Shown: positions 21,023 through 43,181 of the stretch, in pieces
How positions within the stretch are numbered: the first letter of the stretch is position 1
How the letters are laid out: every line of letters starts with the position of its first letter
Origin: Hyphomicrobiales bacterium
Lineage (GTDB): Bacteria > Pseudomonadota > Alphaproteobacteria > Rhizobiales > Beijerinckiaceae
NCBI GenBank assembly: GCA_028290705.1
Contig: JAQGJH010000146.1
Location: forward strand, 1-43,181
DNA: 43,181 bases
Reading direction: 5' to 3'
Notes under the pieces: generated by a model
Seen by the model: only the letters and a program-made list of their open reading frames with translations
Database searches by the model: none
What the model was told of the DNA's origin: nothing
Made by a program: the position numbers and the translations under genes

Positions 21023-21091
21023 GGCGATCCCCGAAAGCAGAACCGCCCGCGCGAGGGGCGCGGGCGGGATGTGTGACGAGCCAGGAAGGAC

Positions 21092-26561: not shown

Positions 26562-26986
26562 CGTCGCTTACTCTGCGCGTGAAGCTTTGGGCCGCAGCGG
26601 TCAAGCGTGACGTCATGGCGCTGTGGATCGCGGGCCGCGATCCACGCGTCCCCTGGGTCGCCAAGGCAGTCGCGGGGCTCGTCGCGGCCTATGCGCTTTC
26701 ACCGATCGATCTGATCCCAGACTTCGTCCCGGTGCTCGGCTATCTGGACGATCTGATCCTCGTGCCCGCGGGAATCATGCTGGCGGTAAGCCTTATTCCG
26801 CCGGCATTGCTGAACGAATTCAGGCTGCAAGCAGAGGCGCGCCTTGAGAGGCCGACGAGCCGTGCGGGCGTCGCGATGATCCTGGTTCTGTGGGTTCTTT
26901 CAGCGTTGTTGCTGTTTTGGCTGTTCACAGGAGAGGGCGCGGCGATCGCATCCGGACTCATCGCGATTGCATCGGCGCCGGCTTAG
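26546..26986 (+). CDS. DUF1232 (YkvA-like) membrane protein
   Basis: A 146-residue protein. The DUF1232 core is clear: AKAVAGLVAAYALSPIDLIP (about 39-58) then DFVPVLGYLDDLILVPAGI, typical of YkvA-family proteins. A second hydrophobic helix lies at about 107-126 (VAMILVLWVLSALLLFWLF). The function of the family is not established. The ATG lies inside moaE, so it is the last member of the uvrC-pgsA-moaDE run or at least starts within it. Confidence 0.83.
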   Translation: MEARLTSLTLRVKLWAAAVKRDVMALWIAGRDPRVPWVAKAVAGLVAAYALSPIDLIPDFVPVLGYLDDLILVPAGIMLAVSLIPPALLNEFRLQAEARLERPTSRAGVAMILVLWVLSALLLFWLFTGEGAAIASGLIAIASAPA

Positions 26987-39112: not shown

Positions 39113-39562
39113 ATGCGCGAGCGTTTCACCACGATGATGAAAGAGTCGATGAAGGCCGGAGACAAGCGCCGGCTCGCCACGGTTCGGATGATCCAGGCGG
39201 CTCTGAAGGATCGAGACATCGAGGCGCGCGGGCAGGGCAAGACCGTATCGGACGAGGACATTCTGGCGCTGCTCCAGAAGATGGTGAAGAGCCGCCAGGA
39301 GTCGCTGGGGATTTACGAAAAGGCCGGACGCACCGACCTGGCCACGCAGGAAAGCGAGGAAATCGCGATCATTTCCGAGTTCCTGCCGGCGCAACTCGAC
39401 GACGCCCAGATGAAGGCTGCCATCGACACCGCCATCGCGGAGACGGGCGCGGCCAGCATGAAGGACATGGGCAAGGTGGTCGCGAGCCTCAAGGCCAAGT
39501 ACACCGGACAGATGGACTTCGCCAAGGCGAGCCAGCAGGTGAAGGCGGCGCTGAACGGGTGA
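39113..39562 (+). CDS. GatB/YqeY-domain protein
   Basis: A 149-residue protein of the YqeY family, which resembles the tRNA-binding tail of GatB. Typical sequence: MRERFTTMMKESMKAGDKRR, ATVRMIQAALKDRDIEARG, EISEF-like IISEFLPAQLDD, and KDMGKVVASLKAKYTGQMDF. A role in tRNA-dependent amidation is assumed for the family but not shown. GGGAG sits 7 nt before the ATG. Repeated TTATCA boxes (39051 and 39062, 11 bp apart) lie upstream. In many bacteria yqeY sits beside dnaG and rpsU, as it does beside dnaG here. Confidence 0.92.
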   Translation: MRERFTTMMKESMKAGDKRRLATVRMIQAALKDRDIEARGQGKTVSDEDILALLQKMVKSRQESLGIYEKAGRTDLATQESEEIAIISEFLPAQLDDAQMKAAIDTAIAETGAASMKDMGKVVASLKAKYTGQMDFAKASQQVKAALNG

Positions 39563-39584
39563 GACGGAGGCTCGCCTGTGGATA

Positions 39585-39615
39585 GCGGGAACAAGGGTTT
39601 CGTGTTTGTTCCCGC
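39585..39615. promoter_or_regulatory. Perfect 10-bp inverted repeat over the dnaG -35 box
   Basis: GCGGGAACAA (39585-39594), 11 nt, TTGTTCCCGC (39606-39615). The right arm contains the -35 hexamer of the proposed dnaG promoter, the expected place for a repressor operator. Without a U-tract it is not a terminator for the YqeY-like gene. Confidence 0.55.
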
Positions 39616-39634
39616 GGGCTTCGCATTCTATACT
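39606..39634 (+). promoter_or_regulatory. Likely dnaG promoter
   Basis: TTGTTC (39606-39611), a 17-nt spacer and TATACT (39629-39634), close to the housekeeping consensus. Transcription would start near 39641, giving dnaG a leader of only ~17 nt. Confidence 0.6.
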
Positions 39635-39657: not shown

Positions 39658-41601
39658 ATGCGATTCACACCGTCCTTTCTCGATGAGATCAAGGCGCGGC
39701 TTCCGGTGTCGGAGGTCGTGCGCCGGCGCGTGAAGCTGACCAAGGCGGGACGCGAGTTCAAGGGCCTGTCGCCCTTCACGTCCGAAAAGTCCCCGTCATT
39801 CTTCGTCAACGACCAGAAGATGGCGTGGTTCGACTTCTCGTCCGGCCGCAACGGCAACGTCTTCGACTTCGTCATGGAAACCGAAGGCCTGACCTTTCCC
39901 GAAGCGGTGGAAAGACTTGCGGCGGAGGCAGGTCTGGCGCTGCCGACCGAGACGCCGGAGACGCGCGCCCGCGAGCAGCGCCGCGCCACCCTCACGGAGG
40001 TTCTCGAACTCGCCGCGGCTTTCTTCGAGACGGAATTGCAGGGCAGGGCGGGTGCGCGCGCCCGCGGCTATCTCGCGGACCGTGGCCTCGGAGCCGCCGC
40101 CCAGAAGCAGTTTCGTATCGGCTATTCGCCCAACGAGAGATACGCGCTGCGAGAACATCTCGCCTCGAAGGGGGCGAGCGTCGAGACCATGTGCGAGGCG
40201 GGCCTGCTGGTGCACGGCGACGAGATCCCCGTGCCGTACGATCGATTCCGCGACCGGGTGATGTTCCCGATCTGCGACCGGGCAGGCCACGTCATCGCCT
40301 TCGGGGGGCGGGCGCTCGACAAGGAGGTGAGCGCCAAATACCTGAATTCGCCCGAGACCCCGCTCTTTCACAAGGGCTCGGTGCTGTACAACCACCACAA
40401 TGCCCGCAAGGCCGCGCACGATCGCGGTTCGATCATCGCGGTCGAGGGCTATGTCGATGTCATCTCGATGACCGTCGCGGGGTTTCCCAACGTCGTCGCC
40501 CCTCTGGGAACCGCCCTGACGGCGGATCAGTGCGACCTGCTCTGGCGGATGGGTGAGGAGCCGGTCCTGTGCTTCGACGGCGACCGCGCCGGCCGCAAGG
40601 CGGCCCATCGCGCCATCGACACGGCGCTGCCGCTGATCGGTCCGGGCAAATCATTGCGCTTCGCCTTCCTGCCTGAGGGGCAGGACCCCGACGATCTGGC
40701 GCGATCGGGCGGGCAGACGGCCATCGCGGAGGTTCTGGGCGGAGCCAAGCCGCTGGTCGACGTGCTCTGGACGCGCGAGGCCGAAGCCGGGCCGCTGGAT
40801 ACGCCGGAGCGGCGAGCCGCGCTGGAGCGGCGTTTGTCCGATCTCGTCAAAGAGATCAAGGACGAGACGCTCCGGAAATATTACCGCGACGAGATCATGG
40901 CGCGGCTGGACGCCATGCAGGGCCGGCAACCGGGGGGCGCGAGCGGGCGCGGCCGGGGCGGCGGCAAATGGTCTGGGCGGCCCGCCCAAGGGGGAGGCGG
41001 CAAATTTTCGAAGCGCGACTTCGGGCAGCCGGCCGGGTATCTGTTCTCGCCGCCCTCCATCAGCCCCAGCCTGGCGCACAGCCAGGTGTTTTCCCGGGGC
41101 GCGGGCATTCCAAGGCGCGAGGCCGAGATCCTGGTCAACGTTCTGCACCACCCCGGGCTGCTGGCCCGGCACTTGGAGGACCTGGCCGAGGTGGAATTCA
41201 CCAGCCGCGACGCCGAAAAGCTCAAGGCGGCACTGACGGCTCTGGCGGCGGAAACTTTTGCCGACTTCGTCGAGTTGCGGCTCGCAGTCGATGCCTGCGG
41301 CCTGCAATCTACCCGCGAATTGATCGAAACGGCGGCCCAACCCTACCCTTGGAGCATCAAGCCGGAGGCCGCGGAGCTTGACGCCGAGCGCGTTTTGCAA
41401 CAGGCACTGGCCTTGCATCGCCGCGCCCGGGCGCTACATAGGGAACTGAAATCCGCAGAAAGAGCGCTCGGCGAGGAAGCCAACGAGCAGAACCTCGCAA
41501 GGTTGCGCGAAATTCAGGCGGAACTCACCGGGATCGAGGGTCGCGAGGCGGCGGTGGAAGGTTTTGGTCTTTCCTCCGGACGCCAGGGGCAGGCCCTGTG
41601 A
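39658..41601 (+). CDS. dnaG: DNA primase, zinc-ribbon ligands lost
   Basis: A 647-aa primase that lays RNA primers at the replication fork. The N-terminal domain keeps the primase shape (FLDEIKARLPVSEVV, EKSPSFFVNDQK), but the four zinc ligands are replaced: Ser38, Thr41, Asp59 and Ser62 stand where Cys-x2-His and Cys-x2-Cys would be. The RNA polymerase core has the TOPRIM marks VEGYVDVISM and CFDGDRAGRKAAHRAID. A Gly/Arg-rich linker (about residues 422-450) leads to the C-terminal DnaB-binding region. This ligand loss is, as I recall, shared by related Alphaproteobacteria. A strong promoter with an inverted repeat lies upstream; rpoD follows. Confidence 0.96.
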   Translation: MRFTPSFLDEIKARLPVSEVVRRRVKLTKAGREFKGLSPFTSEKSPSFFVNDQKMAWFDFSSGRNGNVFDFVMETEGLTFPEAVERLAAEAGLALPTETPETRAREQRRATLTEVLELAAAFFETELQGRAGARARGYLADRGLGAAAQKQFRIGYSPNERYALREHLASKGASVETMCEAGLLVHGDEIPVPYDRFRDRVMFPICDRAGHVIAFGGRALDKEVSAKYLNSPETPLFHKGSVLYNHHNARKAAHDRGSIIAVEGYVDVISMTVAGFPNVVAPLGTALTADQCDLLWRMGEEPVLCFDGDRAGRKAAHRAIDTALPLIGPGKSLRFAFLPEGQDPDDLARSGGQTAIAEVLGGAKPLVDVLWTREAEAGPLDTPERRAALERRLSDLVKEIKDETLRKYYRDEIMARLDAMQGRQPGGASGRGRGGGKWSGRPAQGGGGKFSKRDFGQPAGYLFSPPSISPSLAHSQVFSRGAGIPRREAEILVNVLHHPGLLARHLEDLAEVEFTSRDAEKLKAALTALAAETFADFVELRLAVDACGLQSTRELIETAAQPYPWSIKPEAAELDAERVLQQALALHRRARALHRELKSAERALGEEANEQNLARLREIQAELTGIEGREAAVEGFGLSSGRQGQAL

Positions 41602-41819
41602 GCCCGTCAGGCACGGCGACTTTGACTGTCGACCCCGCGTTGCGGGTCAGATTCGCCCTCCGGCGAGTATTTGTTTAGTTAAGGCACGTTTAATGCCGAT
41701 CAGGCCAAATGTGTGGCAGTGCGATTCGAGATGTGGGCCCCCGTCCGGGCCTTGCTCTGGAACGTGGCGCCAGAGGCCAGAAGGCAAGACCGGCCGGCAA
41801 CGGCGCGATGGAGTTTAGA

Positions 41820-43181
41820 ATGGCGAAAAAGGACGAAGAGAAGCGCGAAGGCGAAGGCGCAGTCCCGGATACGTCCGACAGCCCGTTGCTCGACCTTTCC
41901 GATGCCGCCGTCAAGCGGATGATCAAGCTCGCCAAAAAGCGTGGCTACGTCACCCATGACGAATTGAATGCGGTGTTGCCGTCCGAAGAGGTATCGTCGG
42001 ACCAGATCGAAGACATTTATTCCATGCTCAATGAAATGGGCATTACCGTGTCGGAGGCCGAAGAGGCCGAAGAAGGCGAGGGTGGCGAAGAAGCCGCCGC
42101 CGAGGAAGAAGAGGCCGAGAGCACCGATCTCGTCGACGTGGCCCGCCCCGCGCCCGTGGTGGCGACCCGTTCTTCGGAGCCGGCCGACCGCACCGACGAT
42201 CCCGTGCGCATGTACCTGCGCGAGATGGGCTCGGTCGAGTTGCTGTCGCGCGAAGGTGAAATCGCGATCGCGAAGCGCATCGAGGCCGGCCGCGAAGCCA
42301 TGATCGCGGGCCTCTGCGAGAGTCCGTTGACCTTCCAGGCCATCATCATCTGGCGCGACGAACTCAACGACGGCAAGGTTCTGCTGCGCGACATCATCGA
42401 TCTCGAGGCCACCTACGCGGGTCCCGACGGCAAGAACACGCCCAAGATCGACCACACGGCCGGCGACATCGCGCCCGCGACAGCGCCGCGCACGCCGCCG
42501 CCGGGCCTGGACGGCGAAGCGCCCATTCCCGAGGACGCCTTCGACGACGACGAGGACATGGAAAATTCCGTGTCTCTCTCGGCGATGGAAGCCGAATTGA
42601 AGCCGAAAGTGCTCGACACGTTCGATCGTATCGCCGACGCCTACAAAAAGTTGCGCCGGCTGCAGGACCAGAACGTCGAGAACAAGCTCAAGAACGAGAC
42701 GCTGACTCCGGCGCAGGAGCGCAAGTACAAGACGCTCAAGAAGGAAATCGTCACTGACGTGAAGTCGCTGTCGCTCAACCAGAACCGCATCGATGCGCTG
42801 GTGGAGCAGTTGTACGACATCAACAAAAGGCTGATCGGTCTCGAGACCAAGCTGATGCGGCTCGGCGAGTCGCACGGTGTCGGCCGCGAGGATTTTCTGA
42901 AGAACTACCAGAACTCCGAACTCGATCCGAAGTGGCTGCTGCGTGTCGGCAAGCTCGGCACGCGCGGCTGGAAGGACTTTATCGCGAAGGAAAAGGATCC
43001 GATCAAGAACCTGCGCGGCGACATTCATGCGCTGGCGACGGAGACGGGCCTCGAAATTCTCGAGTTCCGCAAGATCGTCCAGATGGTGCAGAAGGGCGAG
43101 CGCGAAGCCCGGCAGGCCAAGAAGGAAATGGTCGAGGCCAACCTGCGTCTCGTCATCTCCATCGCCAAGAAATACACGAAT
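41820..43181 (+). CDS. rpoD: RNA polymerase primary sigma factor RpoD (sigma-70), 5' part
   Basis: The first 454 codons of the housekeeping sigma factor, cut by the window's right edge. Region 1.1 is at about 25-75 (LLDLSDAAVKRMIKLAKKRG), followed by an acidic Glu/Ala stretch (80-100), region 1.2 (DDPVRMYLREMGSVELLSRE), the large non-conserved insert, and region 2.1 starting at EMVEANLRLVISIAKKYTN. GGAG lies 6 nt before the ATG at 41820; an in-frame ATG at 41808 is less likely. The 218-bp gap after dnaG has a CTCTGG/CCAGAG hairpin (41755-41775) but no clear promoter. dnaG-rpoD is part of the macromolecular-synthesis operon. Confidence 0.97.
   Translation, partial: MAKKDEEKREGEGAVPDTSDSPLLDLSDAAVKRMIKLAKKRGYVTHDELNAVLPSEEVSSDQIEDIYSMLNEMGITVSEAEEAEEGEGGEEAAAEEEEAESTDLVDVARPAPVVATRSSEPADRTDDPVRMYLREMGSVELLSREGEIAIAKRIEAGREAMIAGLCESPLTFQAIIIWRDELNDGKVLLRDIIDLEATYAGPDGKNTPKIDHTAGDIAPATAPRTPPPGLDGEAPIPEDAFDDDEDMENSVSLSAMEAELKPKVLDTFDRIADAYKKLRRLQDQNVENKLKNETLTPAQERKYKTLKKEIVTDVKSLSLNQNRIDALVEQLYDINKRLIGLETKLMRLGESHGVGREDFLKNYQNSELDPKWLLRVGKLGTRGWKDFIAKEKDPIKNLRGDIHALATETGLEILEFRKIVQMVQKGEREARQAKKEMVEANLRLVISIAKKYTN

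Follow-up and report, generated by a model that had tools for sequence, protein, structure and literature searches.

What does a perfect 10-bp inverted repeat at the -35 hexamer of a primase gene represent? The repeat lies upstream of dnaG in the Hyphomicrobiales contig analysed here (the whole stretch of 43,181 nucleotides, hereafter the window), and the original prediction held that the symmetry is the operator of a dimeric regulator that would block RNA polymerase. The features of the locus are collected in Table 1, in which rpoD scores under the full-length cut-off of its model because the gene is cut by the window end. A sigma-70 consensus scan of the region did not report the dnaG promoter (0 found), and the two hexamers were assigned from the sequence.

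Table 1. Features of the dnaG locus, with coordinates in the window.
Feature	Position	Strand	Remarks
carA	neighbour of the dnaG locus	-	
yqeY	39113..39562	+	gene upstream of dnaG; Pfam PF09424, 162.5 bits
Site 1, 21-bp element CCTGTGGATAGCGGGAACAAG	39575..39595	+	consensus CCTGTGnATAnCGGGnAyAAG; common to dnaG and dnaB promoters
DnaA-box-like 9-mer CTATCCACA	39577..39585	-	one mismatch (first base) to TTATCCACA
Left arm GCGGGAACAA	39585..39594	.	3' part of the 21-bp element
Site 2, LexA-like box GTTT-CGTGTTT-GTTC	39597..39611	+	7/8 to GTTC-N7-GTTC; weak copy, 3.9 bits
Right arm TTGTTCCCGC	39606..39615	.	spans the predicted -35 and one half of the LexA-like box
Predicted -35 TTGTTC	39606..39611	+	from sequence
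Predicted -10 TATACT	39629..39634	+	from sequence; 17 nt beyond the -35
dnaG (DNA primase)	39658..41601	+	TIGR01391, 411.7 bits; Pfam primase domains
rpoD	41709..43181	+	NF004208 RpoD, E 7.6e-115; cut by window end; start codon uncertain

The repeat, GCGGGAACAA-N11-TTGTTCCCGC, is exact, with arms that are 100% complementary and separated by 11 nt (39585-39615), and both the TTGTTC and TATACT hexamers and the GTTT-N7-GTTC near-match to the LexA box were found where they had been described. When up to three mismatches were allowed, no second copy was found in the window, none in 100 shuffles, and none elsewhere in the source assembly (3.02 Mb, 73.9% complete), making the repeat a single copy within that assembly. 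Three inverted repeats with perfect arms of at least 10 bp and loops of 3 to 20 nt are present in the window, compared with 0 to 4 (mean 1.8) across 10 simulated windows; the second lies at 21043 (CCGCCCGCGC, loop 5) and the third at 26623 (GTGGATCGCG, loop 3). For any single promoter such a repeat is thus out of the ordinary, yet as a family the dnaG promoters are not marked by inverted repeats, as described below.

The two arms fall on two different elements, site 1 and site 2, and both were followed in relatives, which as found with DnaG were mainly Beijerinckiaceae and other Hyphomicrobiales MAGs. From 74 relative loci, L084, L093 and L100 were left out because the 5' end of dnaG is missing, and the remaining 71 together with the window gave 72 upstream regions; as these loci are related, with many close relatives and MAGs among them, counts across the 72 regions are not independent.

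At site 2, a GTTY-N7-GTTY word with at least one GTTC was found over the -35 in 17 of the 72 dnaG regions versus 11 of 1,544 background windows; most of these 17 regions, like the window, have GTTT as one of the two halves. The perfect GTTC-N7-GTTC word was detected only in two of the 72 regions, L033 and L095. The original prediction had set the LexA near-match aside, and it is precisely this near-match that forms the conserved part of the right side. We built a LexA matrix for the genus from sites upstream of recA and lexA. Upstream of recA, GTTCTTTTTTTGTTC was present in 24 of 26 cases and GTTCTATTTTTGTTC in one, with no box in the last; all 30 lexA upstream regions carry at least one LexA box, and six genomes show the GTTT-N7-GTTC form there. 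In 28 of these 30 lexA regions there are two boxes, on opposite strands and spaced by about 25 bp; one box of the pair usually has GTTT as a half-site. By this matrix, 13 of the 72 dnaG regions exceed the 99th percentile of background. The box in the window reaches the 96th percentile, a score equalled by 4.2% of background windows; it falls below all training sites, the weakest of which scores 12.0 bits, and at least 8 other places in the window outscore it. The LexA reading of site 2 is better for the clade than for the window species.

Conservation of TTGTTC or CTGTTC at 17 to 18 nt from the -10, as seen by eye, can stem from sigma-70, and together with the weak LexA match of the window copy this would fit a site 2 that is merely a -35 hexamer in its preferred context. 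Such a hexamer would not account for the GTTT or GTTC half upstream of the -35, which is conserved at the 15-bp LexA phase in those 17 of 72 regions, nor for the perfect words in two relatives or the GTTT-N7-GTTC form at lexA promoters of six genus genomes. We consider the -35 explanation possible but less likely than a LexA-type box.

When up to five mismatches are allowed, 42 of the 72 dnaG upstream regions contain the 21-bp element of site 1, and none of 1,344 background windows does. Its DnaA-box-like part follows the same pattern: 22 of the 72 regions, and 0 of 1,542 background windows, contain a perfect TTATCCACA; with one mismatch tolerated the counts are 38 of 72 and 14 of 1,542, and all 38 words share one orientation, on the gene strand. 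The shorter word TGTGNATA occurs 46 times in 45 of the 72 regions, 45 times on the gene strand, and is missing within 150 bp from the other 27; NCGGG follows in 20 of the 39 gene-strand boxes that are distinct. No TGTGNATA was found on either strand of the 338,608 bp of DNA flanking the 71 dnaG loci (L032-L105). The tetramer TGTG occurs 1,010 times in those flanks, counting both strands, yet never as TGTGNATA, and DnaA-box-like words are possibly depleted there outside control regions. The logo instances and the profiles R1 and R2 were chosen by likeness to the motif and so the logo and the R1 and R2 tables overstate conservation, whereas the TGTGNATA counts were chosen by that word alone. The consensus of the DnaA box is TTATNCACA, and the variable base within TGTGNATA coincides with the free base of that box. 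CGGGnA is conserved in site 1 as well, though no DnaA box requires it, and a second, paired DnaA box was not recognised by eye at dnaG, where the adjacent TTGTnCCCG is at best weak. Literature searches of partial coverage returned nothing on DnaA boxes at alphaproteobacterial dnaG promoters or on CTGTGGATAACGGG, and the 21-bp element is undescribed as far as that coverage goes.

The same element is located upstream of the helicase gene dnaB. A search of 38 genus genomes for CTGTGGATARCGGGNAYAA, with one mismatch allowed, gave 13 sites, 11 upstream of dnaG and two between rplI and dnaB, the latter being contig ends of one genome that resemble one locus; the reversed control gave 0 sites in the same genomes. 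Exact CCTGTGNNTARCGGG gave 20 sites in the genus (7 for the reversed control), of which 10 are at dnaG, 7 at dnaB, one past an L9-like frame at a contig end that by eye is a dnaB upstream region, and two elsewhere, L314 (G004) and L316. The R1 profile produced 23 genus matches at E<=0.05, 21 at dnaG, as expected because R1 was built from dnaG copies, and two at dnaB, and no origin-like cluster with the full element was seen at this threshold. Between E 0.05 and 1, a further 24 matches comprise 7 at dnaG, 4 at dnaB and 13 elsewhere; none of these 13 is upstream of dnaG or dnaB, most are within ORFs, and their number is as chance should give at E<=1 over 38 genomes. For 30 genomes of the genus, the DNA upstream of dnaB was compared with CCTGTGNNTAACGGG; contig ends shorten two of these regions (G008 and G013). 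The closest match always lies on the gene strand (30 of 30). Seven genomes have it exact, 18 have it at two mismatches or fewer, and in 5 it is poor, at 4-5 mismatches. The genome of the window itself carries CCTGTGCGTAACGGG upstream of dnaB, and dnaB copies drift at the TTAT end of the DnaA box. In the genus, site 1 is near-exclusive to the upstream regions of dnaG and dnaB and lies in gene orientation.

Among 29 dnaB upstream regions from other genera of the order, 18 score above the 1% level set by 203 background windows, and in 17 of these 18 the element is on the gene strand. G216 was left out of this test, as its dnaB is split across contigs, and G224 and G367 had been chosen by their dnaB matches; omitting both gives 16 of 27. 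At dnaG, the corresponding level is exceeded by 5 of 22 regions from the remaining genera of the order and, beyond the order, by 1 of 38. This background comparison is the systematic test, as the genomes of the order-level scan were chosen by match: that scan, over 199 genomes at E<=0.05, gave 11 matches where chance alone could give up to about 10, namely the dnaG of the window, three further dnaG, three dnaB, one B12-dependent ribonucleotide reductase and three others. The element is a replication-gene feature in part of the Hyphomicrobiales, and outside the genus it is strongest at dnaB, where further families of the order often carry it.

Two copies of the element lie near genes for B12-dependent ribonucleotide reductase, one 467 nt upstream of the gene start (L325/L345, G301:C41:959-976) and one 8 bp downstream of the ORF (L331, G004:C14:524-540), the latter being one of the 13 weaker matches elsewhere and identical with the L314 site; this enzyme could be a third target or a chance association. 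At another site, L344 (G279:C1:2074540-2074557), TGTGGATAGCGGGGACAA is followed about 50 bp downstream by a LexA-like GTTC-N7-GTTT word, and the fragment of the divergent ORF that was tried there had no NCBIfam match.

Since the conserved CGGGnAyAA half is left unexplained by a DnaA box, site 1 may be read by a dedicated, undescribed primase-helicase regulator that recognises the whole 21-bp sequence, rather than by DnaA. Besides the TGTG core, CGGG and the A-rich tail are conserved, at dnaG and at dnaB alike; genus matches at E<=0.05 fall on dnaG and dnaB only, with no origin-like cluster of the full element; and dnaB copies, e.g., CCTGTGCGTAACGGG, retain CCTGTG and CGGG as they drift from TTATCCACA. 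A regulator of its own would leave to coincidence that the free base of TGTGNATA is that of the DnaA box and that perfect DnaA boxes occur in 22 of the 72 dnaG regions. The accessible part of one study also reports Caulobacter dnaB under DnaA control (PMC8203912). Taken together, these observations make a dedicated regulator the main alternative, a possible but less likely reader of site 1, and we retain DnaA as the preferred one.

The symmetry that joins the two sites in the window is not kept upstream of dnaG in relatives. Both flanking sites could be located in 17 relatives; the perfect repeat was present in none of these, and 3 to 8 of the 10 arm pairs were left. In the closest relative (L032, DnaG 89% identical), both underlying sites are kept and the arms pair at only 5 of 10 positions; 7 of 10 pairs are kept in L067 and 8 of 10 in L050. 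In the six relatives whose spacing is likewise 11 nt, five or six of the seven inner pairs persist, because GGnACAA and TTGTTCC are each conserved. Inverted repeats were not enriched in the 150 bp upstream of dnaG, whether with arms of 10 (2 of 72, the window and L068, vs 14 of 1,544 background windows) or with arms of 8 (6 of 72 vs 132 of 1,544). The repeat in L068 differs from that in the window and consists of opposed DnaA-box-like words, AGTTATCCACAGC ... GCTGTGGATAACT, which form a perfect inverted repeat. Most likely, the perfect palindrome is a one-species coincidence of two adjoining, separately conserved control sites.

As an operator, the palindrome was rejected on conservation, given 0 of 17 relatives and no inverted-repeat enrichment, and the regulatory role first proposed for the 10-bp symmetry was not supported. 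A dimeric regulator over the -35 survives in another form, as a LexA-like site of the dimeric-repressor type overlaps the -35 in a sub-clade, and not by way of the 10-bp symmetry. The broader view of the dnaG promoter as a conserved regulatory region was borne out, with the flanking sites recurring upstream of dnaG in relatives. A true operator of a dimeric repressor, specific to this species, would be compatible with a repeat that is exact over 10 bp per arm, is centred close to the -35 and has no second copy in the genome, and with the pairs kept in L067 and L050; with the symmetry lost in all 17 relatives and halved in the closest, no enrichment of inverted repeats upstream of dnaG, and other conserved sites accounting for both arms, we regard such an operator as very unlikely.

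Another candidate is DriD, a WYL-domain, ssDNA-activated regulator that activates Caulobacter dnaG after damage via a pseudo-palindrome over the -35, according to the portion of PMC12340889 available. In all 72 dnaG regions the best fit to the DriD sequence ATACGAC-N7-GTCGTAT differs at 5 or more of its 14 positions (at 7 in the window), which does not surpass background; on this absence of the motif, a DriD operator was rejected as highly improbable here. The strand could also form an 11-pair stem, and an RNA hairpin or yqeY terminator is scarcely credible and was rejected, as 9 of 200 shuffles fold equally well (z-score -1.86), the terminator scan found no terminator-like site, and arm pairing is lost in relatives.

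With moderate confidence, and from sequence comparison, we therefore read the palindrome as accidental, arising where a site 1 probably bound by DnaA, common to dnaG and dnaB, adjoins a putative LexA-type site 2. The reading takes in the conservation of both sites, the near-exclusive location of site 1 at dnaG and dnaB in the genus, its orientation, and the loss of symmetry in relatives; from the same data we infer the binding proteins, the sign of regulation, the promoter and the transcription start. The two sites are spaced by 19-20 bp at 8 loci and by 30-32 bp at 10 others, among them the window; these spacings, about one helical turn apart, are no more than a hint, as the loci are related.

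Activators often bind at about -65 to -45, and repressors over the -35. If the promoter is as predicted, site 1 would be located at about -65 to -45, a position that suggests activation. DnaA would most probably bind site 1 at both dnaG and dnaB, and this binding would link expression of primase and helicase to replication initiation. Site 2, most probably a LexA-type box, would cover the dnaG -35, where LexA would hinder RNA polymerase until DNA damage occurs. The arrangement suggests that replication control and DNA-damage control converge on the primase promoter. More speculatively, and on present indications rather doubtful, the Hyphomicrobiales may possess a small replication-fork regulon, in which a new regulator, or DnaA with a CGGG-reading partner, would act on the oriented 21-bp element to set the supply of DnaG and DnaB together, with the dnaG copy beside a LexA-type box and perhaps with B12-dependent ribonucleotide reductase included. 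Primase and helicase pair at the replication fork, and dnaG and dnaB lie apart in these genomes; if true, the oriented element shared by dnaG and dnaB would offer a direct handle on the matching of their supply.

The locus can be compared with several known systems. The rpsU-dnaG-rpoD operon of E. coli carries a LexA box. Like that operon, the window has dnaG beside rpoD and a putative LexA-type control of primase; unlike it, the window has yqeY instead of rpsU upstream, and the box is of another type. Among alphaproteobacterial LexA boxes, the SOS consensus in Caulobacter is GTTC-N7-GTTC, as given in the accessible portion of PMC4211646. Site 2 resembles such boxes in its 15-bp phase, its position on the -35 and the presence of the same form at lexA of relatives, and differs from them in being weak in the window, with one half-site GTTT. 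In Caulobacter, DriD acting at the -35 induces dnaG upon damage (PMC12340889, in part); the window shares with this system a regulatory site over the dnaG -35 and lacks the DriD motif at dnaG.

Site 1 finds its closest counterpart in DnaA-box promoters of replication genes. As far as the available text of PMC8203912 extends, DnaA boxes are described in the promoters of Caulobacter dnaB and dnaQ and of E. coli nrdAB, and Caulobacter dnaB, with predicted DnaA boxes, is a member of the DnaA regulon. E. coli DnaA favours paired boxes 2-3 bp apart, according to the part of PMC11317965 that is accessible. Like the promoters described in PMC8203912, again in the part available, site 1 places a 9-mer of the TTATCCACA type upstream of a replication gene, with dnaB as a common target; unlike them, it consists of a single oriented putative box joined to a conserved CGGGnAyAA half, at both dnaG and dnaB.
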